64,000 nt of DNA from Selenomonas sputigena (GTDB lineage Bacteria; Bacillota; Negativicutes; Selenomonadales; Selenomonadaceae), in the NCBI RefSeq assembly GCF_026015965.1, contig NZ_CP110383.1, positions 343,808-407,807 of the forward strand, given 5' to 3'. This document shows positions 29,872 through 39,467 of this stretch, piece after piece. A model generated the notes under the pieces. It had not been told where the DNA came from. It worked only from the letters and a program-made list of their open reading frames with translations, and ran no database searches. Made by a program: the position numbers and the translations under genes. Within the stretch, counting starts at the first letter, position 1; each line of letters begins with the position of its first letter.

Positions 29872-30147
29872 TTAAAGGGTTGCTACTTGAAGTTTCAACC
29901 CTAGTGGCTGCATGAGTTTCAGCAGTGTGTCGATTTTTGGTGTGGTTTTAAAGGATTCGATGCGTGCGACAGAGGACTGCGGCAAGCCGCAGCGTTCTGC
30001 AAGCATTCGTTGGCTGATGCCGAGGGCAGTGCGACGTTCAATCATAGAAGATACGATGGCTGCAATCTCCTCGATTTCCTCCATGTTGCGACGACTTTCT
30101 GCGTCGATGGATTTTACATGATTCTTGTAATCTTCCCATGTCTTCAT
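29872..30147 (-). CDS. higA: HigA-like XRE antitoxin
   Basis: A 91-residue helix-turn-helix protein. The motif is LGISQRMLAERCGLPQSSVA with RIESFKTTPKIDTLLKLMQPLG. ATG 30147 has AGGAGT eight bases upstream; the GTG at 30156 touches that site. It lies six bases after the toxin gene, the toxin-first order of HigBA. It should neutralise HigB and repress the operon, probably through the palindrome at 30545-30562. Confidence 0.85.
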   Translation of the reverse strand: MKTWEDYKNHVKSIDAESRRNMEEIEEIAAIVSSMIERRTALGISQRMLAERCGLPQSSVARIESFKTTPKIDTLLKLMQPLGLKLQVATL

Positions 30148-30152
30148 TGCGG

Positions 30153-30515
30153 TCACTCCTTTTGTTGACGGATGTAATCCTTCCGTGCCTCTTTAGCGTG
30201 GGCAAGTTCTCTAGGCGGAGTCTTTTGGCTTTTCTTACGAAAGTGGTGCAGCAAAACATATCGATTATCGGCGTAATAGAAATAAAAAATGCGATTATTT
30301 CCTGGGCGGAGTTCCCATATACCATCTTCCAGATGTTTTGTGATTTTGCTTGGCAAATTTGTTCCGTTGAGTGCTAGAAGATCGAGATAAAAGATGATTT
30401 GTTCATACTGAATGCGTGCATCTTTGTTGCTTCCGCTTTTGAGGCGCAGTTCCTCGAGGAAATCCCATACGTCAGATATGCCGTTTCTTTTTTCGTAGAA
30501 ATCAATTTGATACAT
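30153..30515 (-). CDS. higB: HigB-like toxin (RelE/ParE superfamily, phage Gp49-like)
   Basis: A 120-residue protein beginning MYQIDFYEKRNGISDVWDFL. The core GIWELRPGNNRIFYFYYADN with YVLLHHFRKKSQKTPPREL and ARKDYI is diagnostic for the Gp49-like HigB family of ribosome-dependent mRNA interferases. It is paired with the HigA gene. The pair lies in the low-GC island next to the IS remnant, consistent with acquisition. A second, truncated HigB of the same type is at 36002-36112. Confidence 0.88.
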   Translation of the reverse strand: MYQIDFYEKRNGISDVWDFLEELRLKSGSNKDARIQYEQIIFYLDLLALNGTNLPSKITKHLEDGIWELRPGNNRIFYFYYADNRYVLLHHFRKKSQKTPPRELAHAKEARKDYIRQQKE

Positions 30516-30544
30516 AGTCCACTCCCTCTGTTCACTATTTATAT

Positions 30545-30562
30545 GATAGCATAAAAGCTATC
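30545..30562 (-). promoter_or_regulatory. putative HigA operator
   Basis: GATAGC-ATAAAA-GCTATC, a palindrome with 6-bp arms, lies about 30 bases upstream of higB beside an A/T-rich -10 region. It also lies about 20 bases before the divergent start at 30582. Confidence 0.5.
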
Positions 30563-30581
30563 GCTATACAAGGAGGATTCC

Positions 30582-31068
30582 ATGAACCCATTCAGCAAAC
30601 TCTTTCTGCTGTATTACATACTGTTGCCAACCAAGCTGATTGCAATGATTTTGCATGAGTTAACACAGCGTGTTTCTGGCATTGATGTTCGTTCAAGAGC
30701 AAACAAAGTAGCGAATCTTTTTTCACGAATTGCTCGTCAGAAGTGTATTAGTAAAGAGCACGAAGATTGCATATCTCTGCTGCATGAATATCTTGATTCG
30801 ATATTGCAAGCGATTATTGGTGGGAGGCACGCGAGTTCATTCAAAAGAGCGGCACCCCTTTTTATGCTTGGATATCCGATTGGGAGAACTTTGATTATGC
30901 AAATTTTAATATTGATTGGCTTGCATGGTGTGCAGAAAATTTATTAAAAACGATGGGAGAAATGTACAGGTACGAAAAAAGATTCAAGAGGCAGTAAGAA
31001 AGCAACATCTGGATGGATATAGAAACGCCAGTGCTATGAGGAGATACTTTGAGATCTTTGCCGTTTAG
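30582..31068 (+). pseudogene. decayed gene of unknown function, at least two frameshifts
   Basis: ATG 30582 follows AAGGAGG. The first frame gives MNPFSKLFLLYYILLPTK through LHEYLDSILQ, then turns into unlikely sequence and stops at 30947. A second frame from about 30795 to 30997 reads plausibly (DYWWEAREFIQKSGTPFYAW, then NFDYANFNIDWLAWCAENLL). A third, to 31068, reads EAVRKQHLDGYRNASAMRRY. The pieces follow one another, suggesting one gene broken by two frameshifts. The family is not recognised. Stretch 31069-31240 holds only the ribosome site of the next gene. Confidence 0.5.
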
Positions 31069-31240
31069 CTATATAGAGGACAGTCCGTCTGTGCTTTTAA
31101 TGCAGGGCAATGTACGATATAATGAATTCGTAGAATAAACCGACTCCAAGAAGACGGGCGATATGATCAGCAATATAGAGATAGATAACAGCTGTGGCAG
31201 TATGCGCTGCGATGGCAATAAAAGATAGGAGATGGACTGC

Positions 31241-33007
31241 ATGAGAACAAACGATACTCCGATCTTGGATTTGATGAAGGACATCGACAAGGGAAACATT
31301 CAATTGCCTGATTTCCAGCGCGGCTGGGTATGGGATGACAGTCGCATTCGTGGGCTTATTGCCAGCATTACGCAGAATTTTCCAGTAGGTGCCGCCATGT
31401 TCCTCGAATATGGCAATGCGAATGTACGCTTCAAATATCGCATGATTGAGGGCGCACCGTCCTGCAAAGCACAGCCCGAGCAGCTTATTCTGGATGGTCA
31501 GCAGCGGCTCACTTCCATCTATGCGTCTATGTGCAGTCCGAATGCCATCAAAACCAGAACCGACAAAGGCAATGAGATCAAGCGATTTTACTACATCGAT
31601 ATTGCCAAGGCAATTGATCCTGCTATCGATCGAGTGGAGGCTATTATATCCGTCCCAGAGTCGAAGCGAATCACATCCGACTTTGGCAGGAAAATTGACC
31701 TCGATGTTTCGACTGCCGAAAGGGAATATGCGAATAAGCTGTTTCCTCTGAATATCATCTTGGATGACGAGAAGTCCTTTGAGTGGGAACGGGCATATCT
31801 TGCTTATCACAGTAATTCACACGAGGCAAGCGACGAGTATAGAACTTTTCGTGGAAAAATTATAATGACCGTCACTCATTACAAAATTCCTGTCATCAGC
31901 CTGGACAAGGACACGCCGAAGGAAGCGGTGTGCCAAGTTTTTGAGAATGTGAACCAAGGCGGCGTATCGCTTACGGTTTTCGAACTCGTCATAGCTGTAT
32001 TCGCTATGGATGATTTTGAACTCAGGAAAGATTGGGAAAAGCGCAAAAACAATCATCTCAACGGAGATATTCTGAATATTGTCACGGCTACGGATTTCCT
32101 GACTGCCTGCACGCTTCTTTCTGCCTATGAGAAGAAGGGTGTGGTGAGCTGCAAGAAGAAGGACGTGCTGAACCTGAAGCTTGCCGATTATCAAAAATAC
32201 GCCGATGTTTTGATGCAAGGATTCGAGGAAGCGGAAATGTTGCTCTTCGAGGAGCGCATCTTCGTCAGCCGCGACCTTCCTTATACGACGCAGCTCATTC
32301 CATTGGCCGTTTTGTGCGCCTTGCTCTTGCTCGATCGTCGAATAAAAAATTCCAATGTGAAGAACAAAATCAAGCGATGGTATTGGTGCGGTGTATTCGG
32401 TGAGCTTTATGGAAGTGCCAATGAGACGCGTTATGTAAATGATGTAGTTGGCGTGATGAATTGGTTGAACGGTGGTGAGCTGCCCAAGACCATTGTCGAT
32501 TCCTATTTCAATCCCATGCGCCTGTTGATGCTTCAGTCAAGACGGAGTGCTGCCTATAAGGGAATCATGGCGCTTATCATGAAGAATCACAGTCGTGACT
32601 TCATCAGCGGGCAGGAGATGGATCTTGTTCTCTATAAAGCCGCCGGCATTGACATTCACCATATCTTTCCGAAAAACTATTGCAAGAGCAGGGGATATGA
32701 TTATATCAAGTGGGATTCCATCATTAACAAGACGCCCCTATCGTACAGTACCAATCGGGAGATAGGCGGTGTTGCTCCGAGTGAATACCTGGCGCGTATC
32801 GAGAAGAAAAAGGTAGAGCAGACAGACTTGTGCGATTATCTCGCCAGTCATTGGATTGATATGGCCGATTGCATGTCCGATGATTTCGAGAGATTTATCG
32901 TTCATCGCGCGAGAAAAATTCTCGATGCCATTGCAAATGTCACCGGCAAGCCGATTTCCGGCAGGGATAGCGATGAAGTGAGAGAAAAATTTGACGAAAT
33001 TTTGTAA
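31241..33007 (+). CDS. DUF262 protein with C-terminal HNH-type nuclease motif (GmrSD-like)
   Basis: A 588-residue protein. The N-terminal DUF262 (ParB-like) domain has [20 protein letters not shown] at residues 21-40 and the hallmark DGQQRL at 85-90. The C-terminal part has [11 protein letters not shown] at 471-481, an HNH/DUF1524-like nuclease motif. DUF262-HNH proteins include the type IV restriction enzyme GmrSD and several phage-defence proteins. ATG 31241 has AGGAG nine bases upstream; ATG 31232 is part of that site. It stands 110 bp before hsdM on the same strand, so the defence genes may be co-expressed. Confidence 0.85.
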
Positions 33008-33117: not shown

Positions 33118-34695
33118 ATGGACAATAAAAAGGAAATGGAGCGGGCGGAGCTGCATCGGGCGATCTGGCAGATTGCGAACGATCTGCGCGGTTCGGTGGA
33201 TGGCTGGGATTTCAAGCAGTATGTCTTGGGCACGCTCTTTTATCGCTATATCTCGGAGAAGCTGACGAATTACCTCAACCGTGAGGCGCATGAGGCGGGG
33301 GATGCGGCATTTGACTATGCCGCACTGTCCGATGAAGAGGCGGAGACGGAGCGCGAGAATCTCGTGGAGGAGCAGGGGTACTTCATCCTGCCGAGCGAGC
33401 TTTTTGCCAATGTGCGAAAAAGTGCGCCGACAAATGAAAACCTCAATGAAACGCTGGAAAAGGTATTTCACAACATTGAAGCCTCGGCGACTGGCACGGC
33501 GAGTGAAAACGATCTTGCGGGGCTTTTTGAAGACCTCGACGTCAACAGCAACAAGCTCGGCGCTACGGTGAAGGAGCGCAATGCAAAGCTCGTGAAACTC
33601 CTCGACGGCATCGGCGAAATGCAGCTGGGAGATTATCGGGACAACACGATCGATGCCTTCGGCGACGCCTATGAATACCTCATGCGGATGTACGCTTCGA
33701 ATGCCGGCAAGAGCGGCGGCGAATACTATACGCCGCAGGAAGTCTCCGAGCTTCTGACGCGCCTCACGGTCATCGGCAAGGCGCGGGTGAACAAAGTGTA
33801 CGACCCCGCCTGCGGCAGTGGATCTCTATTACTGAAGTTTGCCAAAATTCTCGGCAAGGAGAATGTGCGAAACGGCTTCTACGGGCAGGAGATCAACATC
33901 ACGACGTACAATCTTTGCCGCATCAATATGTTCCTGCATGACATCAATTTCGACGACTTCGACATTGCGCGCGGCGATACGCTGACTGATCCGCAGCATG
34001 ATGCGTTTGAGCCGTTTGAAGCGATTGTTTCCAATCCGCCGTATGCGATTCGGTGGGAAGGCAAGAACAATCCTACCCTTATCAACGATCCGCGCTTCGC
34101 GCCTGCGGGCGTGCTTGCGCCGCCGTCGAAAGCCGACTTCGCCTTCATCTTGCACGCGCTCGCGTGGCTGGCGGCGAACGGCACGGCGGCGATTGTCTGC
34201 TTCCCCGGCATCATGTATCGCGGCGGCGCGGAGAAGAAGATTCGCCAGTATCTGATCGACAGCAATTTCGTCGATGCCGTGATTCAGCTGCCGGACAATC
34301 TCTTTTTCGGCACGAGCATCGCGACCTGCATCATGGTGCTGAAGAAGTCGAAAGCGGACACGACTACGCTCTTCATCGACGCTTCGAAGGAATGTATCAA
34401 GGTCACGAACAACAACAAGCTCACGCAGGAAAACATCGAGCATATCCTGCAGATGTATACTGACCGCGCAGATGTTGCCTACACGGTGCGCCTCGTTCAA
34501 GGCAAGGAAATAGCCGCCGAGGACTACAACCTCTCCGTCAGCACTTACGTCGAACCGGAAGACACGCGCGAAGTCATCGACATCGTGGCGCTCAATGCAG
34601 AGATTCGCGAGATCGTCGCAAGGGAAGAAGTGCTGCGGTGTGAGATCGACAAGATTATTGCCGAGATCGAAGACGAGGAGGGAATTGCTCTATGA
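33118..34695 (+). CDS. hsdM: type I restriction-modification DNA methyltransferase subunit
   Basis: A 525-residue N6-adenine methyltransferase. The helical N-terminal domain ([20 protein letters not shown]) is followed by AdoMet motif [13 protein letters not shown] at about residues 228-240 and catalytic NPPY at about 306-309. ATG 33118 has GGAGG seven bases upstream. It overlaps hsdS by four bases (ATGA). With HsdS it forms the methylase; HsdR joins for restriction. Confidence 0.95.
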
Positions 34696-36008
34696 GCAGG
34701 CTGAAGGAGTTGATGGAAGAGCTTTGCCCGAGTGGAGTGGAGTATAAACAACTTGGTGAGATTGGAACACTTGTCAGAGGAAAAAGATTTGTAAAAAATG
34801 ATTTTGCAGATATTGGAGTACCAGCCATTCATTATGGGGAAATGTATACCTATTACGGAATTTCTAGTAGTGAAGCTAAAACAAAAATACGTGCAGAAAT
34901 CTCATCAAAGATGAGGTATGCACAAACCAATGATGTTATTATTGTAGGCGCAGGCGAAACTGTTGAGGATATTGGAATCGGTGTAGCTTGGCTGGGAAAA
35001 GACGATGTAGCTGTACATGATGCTTGCTATATTTTTCGACATAATATGAATCCGATATATGTATCGTATCTCTTGCGTACAGAAAGCTACCACAAACTAA
35101 TTAAGAAATATATTACTACAGGGAAAATATCGTCTATTTCGGCGCAAGGCTTAGCGAAAGCGATCATTCCCGTCCCGCCATTGGAAATTCAAAATGAAAT
35201 CGTAAAATTATTAGACAGTTTTACGGAGCTTACAACGGAGCTTACCGCAGAGCTTACAGCGGAGCTTACCTTGCGGAAAAAGCAGTATAATTTTTACCGC
35301 GACAGCCTTTTGAATTTTGTCCGTGTGGATGATACAATCGTTCAGACAGACAGACAGACAGACAGACAAGCTCAAAGAATAAGTGAATTTGGGCTGTGGC
35401 GGAAAACGCAACATATAGAGTGGAAAAGTTTACGAGATATTTCCGTGCGAATTTCTTCGGGAGGAACGCCAAGAAAAACAAATTCTGCTTATTATACTGG
35501 CGGTACAATTCCTTGGTTGCGAACTCAAGAGGTGGAATTTAATTATATTGAGAAAGCGACATCTTTTATTACAGAAGAGGGATTAAAAAACTCATCGGCG
35601 AAATGGATCCCTGCACACTGTGTTATTGTTGCCATATCTGGTGCGACAGCTGGACGAAGTGCTGTCAATAATATCCCTGTTACAACGAATCAGCATTGTT
35701 GTAACATTGAAGTTAACGAGGAAATGGTTGAGTATAAATATGTGTTCTATTGGGTAAAAAGCCAATATGAAAAGTTGAAAGGGCTAGGGCGCGGCGCACG
35801 GGCAGATTTGAGTGCAGAAATTATAGCCAACTATCCTATCCCTGTTCCGCCTCTTTCTGAACAGTGCCGCATCGTCTCCATCCTCGACCGCTTCGACGCC
35901 CTATGCAACGATCTCACAAGCGGCCTCCCTGCCGAGATCGCCGCACGCAAGAAGCAATACGAACACTACCGCGATAAACTGCTGACCTTTCCAAGAAGCA
36001 ACGGATAG
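34692..36008 (+). CDS. hsdS: type I restriction-modification specificity subunit with two repeat tracts
   Basis: A 438-residue DNA-recognition subunit with two target-recognition domains. Each ends in a helical spacer: [20 protein letters not shown]...[16 protein letters not shown], and [19 protein letters not shown]...[16 protein letters not shown]. The central spacer holds four 12-bp repeats (T-x-E-L, residues about 178-193) like those of EcoR124. A (CAGA)6 tract follows at residues 218-225. A gain or loss of one CAGA unit reaches a stop within six codons, giving a half-size subunit with only the first recognition domain. Base composition is lower in GC than hsdM and hsdR. Confidence 0.93.
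35223..35270. repeat. four 12-bp repeats in hsdS central spacer
   Basis: Units ACGGAGCTTACA, ACGGAGCTTACC, GCAGAGCTTACA and GCGGAGCTTACC encode TELT-type repeats. In the EcoR124 family the number of TAEL units sets the spacing between the two half-sites recognised. Confidence 0.85.
35343..35366. repeat. tetranucleotide repeat (CAGA)6 in hsdS, phase-variation candidate
   Basis: Six perfect CAGA units plus a partial CA, in frame as QTDRQTDR. With five or seven units the downstream frame meets TAA at 35380 or TGA at 35384. Confidence 0.9.
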
Positions 36009-36112
36009 TTCTAACGCATGGATTCATTAAGAAAACACAGAAGACTCCGGTACGAGAAATCGAACGTGCGAAAAAATATCGTGTGATTTATTGCGAGAGA
36101 GAGGAGAAATGA
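36002..36112 (+). pseudogene. 3' remnant of a HigB-type toxin gene
   Basis: In the frame +1 to the hsdS end the sequence reads [20 protein letters not shown] then ERAKKYRVIYCEREE and stops at 36112. This is the C-terminal third of a Gp49-like HigB (compare VLLHHFRKKSQKTPPREL in the intact gene at 30153). The 5' two-thirds are gone, replaced by the end of hsdS. Confidence 0.75.
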
Positions 36113-36113
36113 C

Positions 36114-36386
36114 ATGGATGATTTGGATCGCTATATTGCAGAGCAGATGAAAGACCCCGCTTTTCGCGAAGAACACGAACGGACACGTTTGGAATTCGCA
36201 CTTACAGAACTCCTGATTACGGCACGCATGGAGCAGGATCTGACACAGAAAGAATTGGCGGAGAAATCGGGGGTTCGCCAATCGAACATCAGCCGTATTG
36301 AAAAAGGACAGGCGGTACCTTCCTTGGTGACGCTTGATAAGATTGCAAAGGCATTGGGAAAGGAAGTCCAAGTCAGTTTTGTCTGA
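36114..36386 (+). CDS. HigA-like XRE protein, antitoxin without intact toxin
   Basis: A 90-residue helix-turn-helix protein with LTQKELAEKSGVRQSNISRI and EKGQAVPSLVTLDKIAKALG. It starts one base after the toxin remnant's stop, the normal HigBA spacing, with AGGAG six bases upstream. Since its toxin is truncated it can no longer act as a classical antitoxin here. It may neutralise a related HigB or regulate the restriction operon in which it now sits, 21 bp before hsdR. Confidence 0.85.
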   Translation: MDDLDRYIAEQMKDPAFREEHERTRLEFALTELLITARMEQDLTQKELAEKSGVRQSNISRIEKGQAVPSLVTLDKIAKALGKEVQVSFV

Positions 36387-36407: not shown

Positions 36408-39400
36408 TTGTACTATAACCTGATTGCAAGCGCAGAAGAGAGCACGGTGCTCGCGCAGTATGTTCGCGAGGAGCGGGCGCCGTATGCGGCGTATCAGTCG
36501 GAGGCGGCGCTTGAGCGAGCATTGATCGGGCTGCTGGAAGAGGAAGGCTATACGTATCTTCGGATTCATGACGAGGCGGAGCTGGTCGCGAATCTTCGAG
36601 AGCAGCTTTCGGCGCTCAATGATTATGTGTTCAGTGATGCGGAGTGGGAACGGTTCTTCAAGGCTTCGATCGCGCCTGCGGGCGACGGCATTGTGGAGAA
36701 GACGCGGCGTATTCAGACGGATTACATTCAGAATCTTCGGCGCGATGACGGAACGACGAAGAACATCAAGCTGATCGACAAGGAGAACATTTATAACAAT
36801 CGTTTGCAGGTCATCAACCAATATGCGGTAGAGGGCGGTGCGGACGCTCAAGCAGAGAATGCGGCGGCTCATGCGAATCGCTACGATGTGACGATTCTCG
36901 TCAACGGCTTGCCGCTCGTGCATTTGGAGCTGAAGCGGCGCGGCGTGGAGATTCGGCAGGCGTTCAACCAGATCAATCGCTATCAGCGCGACAGTTTTTG
37001 GGCAGGTGCGGGGCTGTATGAGTATGTGCAGGTTTTCATCATTTCGAACGGGACGAATACGAAGTATTATTCCAATACGACGCGTGCAAGTCATATCCGA
37101 GAGATGGATGCGGCGGGGCGCAGGGCGAGCAAGAAGACGAGCAACAGTTTTGAGTTCACATCGTTTTGGGCGGATGCGAGCAATCGCCTCATCACCGACC
37201 TCATGGATTTCGGCCGCACGTTCCTCGCGAAGCATACCCTGCTCGCCGTCTTGACGCGCTATTCGATCTTTACGACGGAAGAGGTGCTGATGCTCATGCG
37301 TCCGTACCAGATTGCGGCGACGGAGCGCATTTTGTCGCGCATCAAGATCGCGTCGAATTACAAGACTTGGGGCAAGATCGAGGGCGGCGGCTATATCTGG
37401 CACACGACGGGGTCGGGCAAGACGCTGACTTCGTTCAAGACGGCGCAGCTTGCCGCAGGGCTGCCGGATATTGATAAGGTACTCTTTGTGGTCGACCGCA
37501 AGGATCTTGACTATCAGACGATGAAGGAGTACGACCGCTTTGAAAAGGGCGCGGCGAACGGCAATACGTCGACGCGCGTGCTCGCGGGGCAGCTCGCGAA
37601 TGATGCGGCGCGCATCGTCGTCACGACGATTCAGAAGCTCGCTATGTTCATCAAGCAGAACAAGACGCACGCGATCTACGGCAAGCATGTCGTGCTGATT
37701 TTCGATGAGTGCCATCGCTCGCAGTTCGGCGATATGCACACGGCGATTGCGAAGGCGTTCAAGAAGTATCATATCTTCGGCTTTACGGGCACGCCGATTT
37801 TCGCGCCGAATGCGTCGGGCGCGGGCAAGCCTTCGGCGCGGACGACGCCGCAGCTTTTCGGCGATAAGCTCCACACCTATACGATTGTGAACGCCATCAA
37901 CGACGGCAATGTGCTGCCGTTTCGCATTGATTACATCAACACGATGAAGAGCAAGGCGGAGATCGAGGACAAGGAAGTGCGTGCCATTGACCGCGAGAAG
38001 GCGCTCGCTGCGCCCGAGCGCATCCGTGCCGTGACGGAATATATCCTCGTGCATTTCGATCAGAAGACGATGCGCGGCAAGGCGTATTCGCTCAAGGGAC
38101 AGCGTGTCTTGGGGTTCAATTCGATGTTCGCGGTCGCGTCGATTCCTGTCTGCATGAAGTATTACGAGGAGTTCAAGCGTCAGCTGGCAGCGGCGGGGCG
38201 CGACCTTGCGGTTGCGACGATTTTCAGCTATGCGGCGAACGAGGACGATCCCGAGGACGCTTTGCCCGATGAGGATTTTGATACGGCGGGGCTTGACCGC
38301 ACGAGCCGCGACTTCCTTTCGGACGCGATTGCGGACTATAATGCGCGTTTTTCTACGAATTTTTCGACGGACGGGGATTCCTTCCAGAATTATTACAAGG
38401 ATCTTTCTCAGCGCATGAAGAAGCGCGAGATCGATTTGCTCATCGTTGTCAATATGTTCCTCACGGGCTTTGACGCGACGACGCTCAACACGCTTTGGGT
38501 GGACAAGAACCTCAAGTACCATGGGCTGATTCAGGCGTTTTCACGCACGAACCGCATTTTGAATTCGGTCAAGACGTTTGGCAATATCGTCGCTTTTCGC
38601 AATCTGGCGAAAGCGACGGACGATGCGATCTCGCTTTTCGGTGATGAGAATGCCGAGAGCGTCGTGCTGCTGCGAGGTTTCCGCGACTACTACGACGGCT
38701 ATGATGATGCGAGCGGCCGTCATCATAGGGGCTATGCGGAGCTTATCCTGGAGCTGCGCGAGAAGTTCGCCGTCGGTGAGCCGATCTTGGGCGAGCAGGC
38801 GCAGAAGGATTTCGTGCGCATCTTCGGCAGCATTCTGCGCCTCAGGAACATTCTCACGGCGTTTGATGATTTTGAGGAAAATGATCCTCTCCTGCCGCCG
38901 CGCGATTTGCAGGATTACCAGAGCATGTACTTGGACATTCATCGCGAGATGACGGGCGCAGGAAATGCGGAGAAGGAGAACATCAACGACGATGTCGTGT
39001 TCGAGTTGGAATTGATCCGGCAGGTGGACATCAATATCGACTACATTCTTCTGCTCGTGGAGAAGTATCATGCATCGAACGGCTTGGACAAGAGTATCAT
39101 CGGCGCGATCGACCGCGCCGTCGGCGCAAGTCCTGAGCTTAGGAGCAAGAAGGAGCTGATCGACGGCTTCATCAAGACGGTCAACACGAGTACGAAGGTG
39201 ATGGAGGACTGGCGCACCTATGTCGATGCGGAGAAGGAAAAGGCGCTCGAAAAAATCGTGCAGGAGGAGAAGCTGAAGCCCGAGGAGACGGAGAAGTTCG
39301 TCCGAAGTGCGCTGCGCGACGGCAGGTTCAAGACGACGGGCACGGCGATTGATACGATCCTGCCGCCCGTTCGCCGCTTCGGCGGCGCTCGCGCCGAGAA

Positions 39401-39467
39401 GAAGGCGGGCGTCATCGAAAAGCTCAAGACGTTCTTTGCAACTTTTATGGGGCTGGTGGAGGAGTGA
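36408..39467 (+). CDS. hsdR: type I restriction endonuclease subunit R
   Basis: A 1019-residue restriction and translocation subunit. The nuclease site is D163...E174-L-K176 in the segment DVTILVNG...VHLELKRRG. Walker A HTTGSGKT starts at about residue 332, and the DEAD-like box FDECHRSQFG is near 432. Helicase motifs FGFTGTPIF and QAFSRTNR follow. TTG 36408 is the start, eight bases after AGGAGG. The gene appears intact, so the system is probably active when hsdS is in frame. Confidence 0.93.
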   Translation: MYYNLIASAEESTVLAQYVREERAPYAAYQSEAALERALIGLLEEEGYTYLRIHDEAELVANLREQLSALNDYVFSDAEWERFFKASIAPAGDGIVEKTRRIQTDYIQNLRRDDGTTKNIKLIDKENIYNNRLQVINQYAVEGGADAQAENAAAHANRYDVTILVNGLPLVHLELKRRGVEIRQAFNQINRYQRDSFWAGAGLYEYVQVFIISNGTNTKYYSNTTRASHIREMDAAGRRASKKTSNSFEFTSFWADASNRLITDLMDFGRTFLAKHTLLAVLTRYSIFTTEEVLMLMRPYQIAATERILSRIKIASNYKTWGKIEGGGYIWHTTGSGKTLTSFKTAQLAAGLPDIDKVLFVVDRKDLDYQTMKEYDRFEKGAANGNTSTRVLAGQLANDAARIVVTTIQKLAMFIKQNKTHAIYGKHVVLIFDECHRSQFGDMHTAIAKAFKKYHIFGFTGTPIFAPNASGAGKPSARTTPQLFGDKLHTYTIVNAINDGNVLPFRIDYINTMKSKAEIEDKEVRAIDREKALAAPERIRAVTEYILVHFDQKTMRGKAYSLKGQRVLGFNSMFAVASIPVCMKYYEEFKRQLAAAGRDLAVATIFSYAANEDDPEDALPDEDFDTAGLDRTSRDFLSDAIADYNARFSTNFSTDGDSFQNYYKDLSQRMKKREIDLLIVVNMFLTGFDATTLNTLWVDKNLKYHGLIQAFSRTNRILNSVKTFGNIVAFRNLAKATDDAISLFGDENAESVVLLRGFRDYYDGYDDASGRHHRGYAELILELREKFAVGEPILGEQAQKDFVRIFGSILRLRNILTAFDDFEENDPLLPPRDLQDYQSMYLDIHREMTGAGNAEKENINDDVVFELELIRQVDINIDYILLLVEKYHASNGLDKSIIGAIDRAVGASPELRSKKELIDGFIKTVNTSTKVMEDWRTYVDAEKEKALEKIVQEEKLKPEETEKFVRSALRDGRFKTTGTAIDTILPPVRRFGGARAEKKAGVIEKLKTFFATFMGLVEE

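Follow-up and report, generated by a model that had tools for sequence, protein, structure and literature searches.

Here we report that a perfect CAGA tract in the hsdS gene of a Selenomonas sputigena Type I restriction-modification locus lies at the joint between two modules, each a recognition domain (TRD) followed by a helix, and is probably a slipped-strand switch between full and half HsdS that changes the specificity of the system. With a unit number that is a multiple of three, as the six here, full HsdS would be made, and the system would methylate and restrict an asymmetric target whose two parts are recognised by TRD1 and TRD2. Gain or loss of one unit would give a 228-232-aa protein with TRD1 and its helix; two such proteins would pair, substituting for a single full HsdS, and recognise a palindrome built from the TRD1 half-site. 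We infer slippage in this strain, as we do the folding, pairing and specificity of half subunits and the effects on expression. The locus lies in a window of 64,000 nucleotides (the whole stretch of DNA that was analysed) and has the following features, the module boundaries within HsdS being predicted.

33118-34695, + strand: hsdM, Type I DNA methyltransferase (N6_Mtase, HsdM_N, MTase_I; ORF)
34692-36008, + strand: hsdS, specificity subunit, 438 aa, full-length state (two Methylase_S stretches; EcoR124 HsdS, E 2.3e-48)
34692-35171, + strand: first recognition domain, TRD1, residues 1-160 (AlphaFold2; Methylase_S in 34692-35342 alone)
35181-35309, + strand: long central helix, residues 164-206, conserved region after TRD1 (AlphaFold2; alignment)
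35223-35269, + strand: 12-bp array, 3.9 copies, TAEL-type spacer repeat coding 15 residues (Tandem Repeats Finder; TAEL in EcoR124)
35329-35331, + strand: ATG in the +1 frame upstream of the tract, 17 codons to a stop in the present window
35343-35368, + strand: (CAGA)6 plus CA tract, perfect, 26 nt, coding QTDRQTDRQ; proposed switch
35380-35386, + strand: stops reached after a frame change, TAA at 35380 (five units) and TGA at 35384 (seven units)
35418-35846, + strand: second recognition domain, TRD2, residues 243-385 (AlphaFold2; Methylase_S)
35853-35981, + strand: distal helices, residues 388-430 (AlphaFold2)
36114-36386, + strand: small helix-turn-helix gene between hsdS and hsdR (HTH_3)
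36408-39467, + strand: hsdR, Type I restriction subunit (EcoR124_C, HSDR_N, T1R_D3-like, SWI2_SNF2, REase_I)

Judged from its sequence, the hsdM-hsdS-hsdR locus is apparently intact (the hsdM reading frame is open from 33037, and the ATG at 33118 was taken as the start). The three genes are adjacent, both HsdR and HsdS are EcoR124-like, as the gene content of Type IC demands, and about four TAEL-like repeats sit in the central helix of HsdS, whose best match among solved structures is EcoR124 HsdS. Because of the EcoR124_C domain in HsdR, the EcoR124 HsdS match and the TAEL-like array, the system classifies as Type IC. A single hsdS is present in the locus; elsewhere in the genome HsdS has only two matches at E <= 0.001, both weak and about 365 kb away. 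Inverting Type I loci such as SpnD39III also change specificity within a clone (PMC7394358) but need several hsdS genes with inverted repeats; inversion as the switch was rejected because the locus has one hsdS.

An earlier note on this DNA had placed six perfect CAGA units in the hsdS frame at 35343-35366 and had read a TAA at 35380 after loss of a unit and a TGA at 35384 after gain. All of this is correct, and the tract runs 2 nt further (CA), to 35368. Its first unit begins at codon 218, 651 nt into the 438-codon ORF. By frame reading, five units give a product of 228 aa and seven units one of 232 aa; across hypothetical unit numbers of 2-12, off-frame products end at 35380 or 35384 and span 224-236 aa, in agreement with the roughly 230 residues proposed earlier, and the frame is kept to the TAG at 36006 only with 3, 6, 9 or 12 units. 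The 24-nt (CAGA)6 pattern with up to 3 mismatches has three matches in the window, all at the hsdS tract, and none in 100 dinucleotide-preserving shuffles of the window; the tract is also the sole run of at least four CAGA units in the 2.61 Mb single-contig genome. A chance repeat was rejected on these two counts. The exact 23-nt linker-plus-repeat pattern had no match in viral_contigs.

The AlphaFold2 monomer model of full HsdS (27-row alignment, mean pLDDT 86, pTM 0.62) matches HsdS structures in Foldseek, including EcoR124, and its linker at residues 211-240 is poorly defined (block means 68, 53 and 51). A monomer model of the fragment 1-225 (17 rows, mean pLDDT 85, pTM 0.74) leaves TRD1 and the helix unchanged with a disordered tail, and matches HsdS chains as well as the stand-alone Esub1 (185-196 residues). 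The distance from the helix end (LLSF) to TRD2 (VEWK) is about 4 residues in EcoR124 HsdS versus about 32 in the window HsdS, and QTDRQTDRQ belongs to this insertion of about 32 residues. Structure prediction thus bears out the placement of the tract after the first recognition domain, beyond TRD1 and the long helix, and a position inside a TRD or near the 5' end was rejected by the frames together with the model. Since the tract encodes a predicted disordered linker between modules, truncation there would leave one whole TRD+helix module.

Repeat-switched HsdS is already known from NgoAV of Neisseria gonorrhoeae, to which the window hsdS adds a tetranucleotide case. As described for NgoAV, it is a Type IC system with a simple repeat near the end of the hsdS first half (PMC9577141, PMC6789123), in which the off-frame state gives an N-half (208 aa in NgoAV) and the in-frame state a fused HsdS, with TAEL/LEAT-type spacer repeats in the same gene. 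The window gene likewise has a non-triplet repeat between its first TRD+helix module and TRD2, and its off-frame products, as read from frames and structure prediction, would end soon after the module and keep TRD1 and the helix. The NgoAV half subunit is reported to target GCAN8TGC and the fused form GCAN7STCA, the poly-G tract numbering 6 to 9 G across 92 strains (PMC9577141), and the motif is described as set jointly by LEAT number and poly-G (PMC6789123). The two differ in that NgoAV has poly-G in place of a tetranucleotide and belongs to another phylum, and in that strain variation and both activities are documented for NgoAV but predicted for the window system.

Half subunits are also described from the laboratory. 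Truncated HsdS of EcoR124I (deletion 50) and EcoDXXI, likewise Type IC, act as homodimers on palindromes, the N-half there comprising TRD1 and helix; unlike in the window, these truncations arose by laboratory deletion or transposon insertion, without a repeat switch. Half-HsdS homodimers are reported there for Type IC and for none of the other Type I families (PMC3874165). EcoR124I and EcoR124II further share with the window the same kind of 12-bp in-frame TAEL repeat (window 35223-35269; PMC3874165), whose copy change alters target spacing, not TRD number, so that in the window it is a second, separate feature. This array varies among relatives, with perfect stretches of about 25 to 57 nt (seen in L010, L011, L022, L037, L038 and many of L063-L129), and as a second, in-frame repeat in the same hsdS genes it should change target spacing.

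Simple repeats are quoted for 7.9% of hsdS genes, a survey figure given in PMC7394358, and tetranucleotide repeats are reported in Type III mod genes (PMC6241649). Among the literature matches listed, we found no report of the window locus or of CAGA at an hsdS joint, and the accessible portions of PMC3077401 and PMC13076061 contain no repeat joint. A 2020 survey of Type I repeats or the 2011 work on NgoAV may contain such a report, and the 2020 survey may already hold the window locus or the joint-placement rule.

Relatives of the window gene carry the tract at different lengths. HsdS had a match in 28 of 60 near genomes, its own genome counted, and the linker DNA matched 17 of 189 family genomes, of which only six, the window included, match outside the CAGA run (the others being G001, G082, G020, G079 and G080). 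The sister genome G001 has the same 6.5-unit tract as the window, with six units in frame in a full-length hsdS, and this is its one run of at least four CAGA units. S. massiliensis (G082, Selenomonadaceae) has 10 units plus CAG, in frame in a full-length gene, its stretch being identical to L063, a close relative of the window among the survey loci described below. In G020 there are 2 units plus CAG, and hsdS is split, with an N-half of 225 aa and, in a different frame, a C-half ORF of 229 codons; in G079 and G080 the helix end is present and the modules are joined without any tract. Unit numbers are thus 2, 6, 6 and 10 in four genomes, each another species (one genome per species), and because of these numbers and the halves of G020 we conclude that joint tract length differs between species and splits the gene in one.

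Between the window and G001 the compared hsdM stretch is 94.3% identical and the linker 96%, and no alignment is found between about 34745 and 35166 (against L004), such that TRD1 has been exchanged. The exchange is clean, and the CAGA linker is retained downstream of it. Persistence of the same six units despite the TRD1 exchange and this hsdM identity is mild evidence against rapid change.

The same joint carries repeats in other hsdS genes. We surveyed 67 relatives, found by scanning named genomes with the HsdS protein and with peptide patterns that leave out the tract; TRD+helix module ends were located and non-triplet repeats then scanned, with minimum run lengths, chosen after an initial inspection, of 9 nt for 1-nt units, 12 nt for 2-nt, 15 nt for 4-nt, 17 nt for 5-nt and 22 nt for 7-nt units. 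Within the hsdS interval there are 19 tracts, in 18 of the 67 loci, and 18 of these 19 begin 3-71 nt after a module end (rough binomial 4e-16, taking two modules per locus and loci as independent); outside that interval, these loci contain 16 tracts in 639 kb, of which 12 are A or T runs. The repeated units are G, GA, CAGA/GACA or TCAAT, with CAAC only in the exceptional L105, and the records include, by their titles, Treponema, Patescibacteria, Clostridia-type, Alphaproteobacteria and Mycoplasma. The L105 tract lies at the 5' end of the gene and that of L119 beyond the stop that follows the module; since these two fall out, 17 of the 19 tracts are joints open to read-through.

Most tract-bearing survey genes read through in frame, and L114, L116 and L118 are split like G020, with N-halves of 209-236 codons. 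For 17 tracts (L100, at a contig end, L105 and L119 dropped, the window added), the slower closed frame stops after a median of 6 codons versus 17 at random downstream positions, 14% of which stop equally early. A second set gave a tract in 2 of 24 loci with the helix motif, namely 18 of 29 phylum loci (L151-L179) and 6 of 7 family loci, the latter six not being independent because they had been scanned earlier. Its tracts lie 23 nt after the second module in L158 and at the edge of the stretch in L164, with the upstream side out of view.

Six of the 67 survey loci (L066, L080, L084, L112, L117 and L123), and L158 of the second set, have three module ends. A single frame of 591-667 codons spans all three modules in L066, L117, L080 and L084; in L112 the first module is in a different frame from the second and third, and in L123 an 18-unit CAGA tract is out of frame, so that the third module stands apart from a normal two-TRD HsdS. 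The repeats between modules, which L158 also has, are located as follows.

L066, 4872-4889: repeat between modules
L080, 1330-1399: repeat between modules
L084, 6592-7137: repeat between modules
L112, 7206-7214: repeat between modules
L117, 7179-7196: repeat between modules
L123, 7123-7197: repeat between modules

Because these three-module genes have repeats between their modules, a joint of this type can also bring in a third TRD, and by sequence the frame would decide between two and three TRDs. Such genes resemble JHP1422, a three-TRD HsdS of Helicobacter pylori in which an extra TRD module changes methylation (PMC3936762); a repeat joint is not mentioned in the accessible part of that report, which bears on the three-module relatives and not on the window gene. 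Based on these observations, we consider it an even chance that Type IC hsdS genes in unrelated phyla have repeatedly gained, directly behind a TRD+helix module, simple repeats of G, GA, CAGA/GACA, GAAC or TCAAT that serve as slip hinges by which entire modules are added or lost (one or two TRDs in window-like genes, two or three in the seven three-module genes), a general convergent design of which NgoAV would be one case.

Plain on/off phase variation, in which a truncated HsdS is inactive or degraded and slippage shuts off methylation and restriction, is the commonest role of such repeats, and in three other genes of the family, glycosyltransferase- or acyltransferase-like by eye, CAGA tracts start soon after the first start (62 nt in L040, 35 nt in L044, 17 nt in L046). 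Half subunits do not always work, as one TRD of the three-TRD H. pylori HsdS is reported inactive alone (PMC3936762), and 43 of 92 gonococcal strains were counted as probably inactive (PMC9577141). A new specificity with HsdR present would also endanger unmethylated host DNA, which speaks against a specificity switch. Against plain shut-off, however, the hsdS tract begins far into the gene, just past a whole module, repeats of other hsdS genes cluster at that joint, and Type IC half subunits are reported active (PMC3874165); we regard shut-off as unlikely. The specificity switch is better supported, because truncation at the tract leaves a whole module, unrelated repeats occupy the same joint, and a change of target is reported for NgoAV, which has this design with poly-G as its repeat. 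The earlier suggestion of a change of specificity in preference to loss of function is thereby strengthened by the Type IC family, the frames, the joint position, the split relative G020 and the repeats of unrelated hsdS genes.

Should one off-frame state (7, 10 and so on units, as we infer) also make a C-half from the +1-frame ATG at 35329, ahead of the tract, the frame would enter TRD2 and the gene would have three states, with two palindromic targets plus the original. The counterpart of this frame in G020 is open for 223-227 codons into TRD2, with a corresponding ORF of 223-225 codons, and N- and C-truncated EcoDXXI subunits, expressed separately, are reported to have restored wild-type activity (PMC3874165). 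A convincing ribosome-binding site was not seen by eye upstream of the ATG, however, and the second half of NgoAV reportedly yields no active protein (PMC9577141), and such a three-state switch seems to us distinctly doubtful. A slimmer chance still is given to a flexible linker without a switching role, whose unit number changes too slowly to matter. Six units are short for a fast phase switch, the predicted disorder of the stretch would suit a linker, and the identical tracts of the window and G001 are consistent with stability; yet 2, 6 and 10 units occur at this joint among relatives, one gene is split by its tract, and the repeat is not needed as a linker because G079 and G080 join their modules with none.

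If the specificity switch is real, one slipped unit would alter both restriction and methylation targets, which would give a Selenomonadaceae bacterium a cheap means of diversifying its phage defence and perhaps its gene expression. For many hsdS genes, the placement rule predicts half-subunit palindromic motifs in off-frame cells and, for three-module genes, switching between two and three TRDs.

Additional observations concern neighbouring genes. At 35993-36112 (+ strand), overlapping the last hsdS codons in another frame, lies a remnant of a Gp49-like (HigB-type) toxin, 39 codons of which match the end of the PF05973 profile. Over 36 aa the remnant shares 47% identity with the intact Gp49 protein encoded at 30153-30515, and hsdS ends in the same way in G001. 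The helix-turn-helix gene then follows (36114-36386), and its product is perhaps a leftover antitoxin. Adjoining the Type I locus, 29872-33007 holds a toxin-antitoxin-like Gp49/HTH pair along with a GmrSD_N (DUF262-like) protein of 591 aa, to which PADLOC HEC-05 models give matches, and looks like a small defence island.

Long CAGA tracts, of up to 32 units, also occur in other Selenomonadaceae genomes (L039-L051), several of them close to the start of a glycosyltransferase- or acyltransferase-like gene and one towards the end of a gene resembling an adenine methyltransferase (labels by eye). Tract position was measured in 7 of 12 other family loci: besides the three starts given above, no start is visible ahead of the tract in L048 and L041, N letters obscure L049, and the L051 tract is late in its gene. 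The tracts in these family genes look different from the hsdS joint tract.
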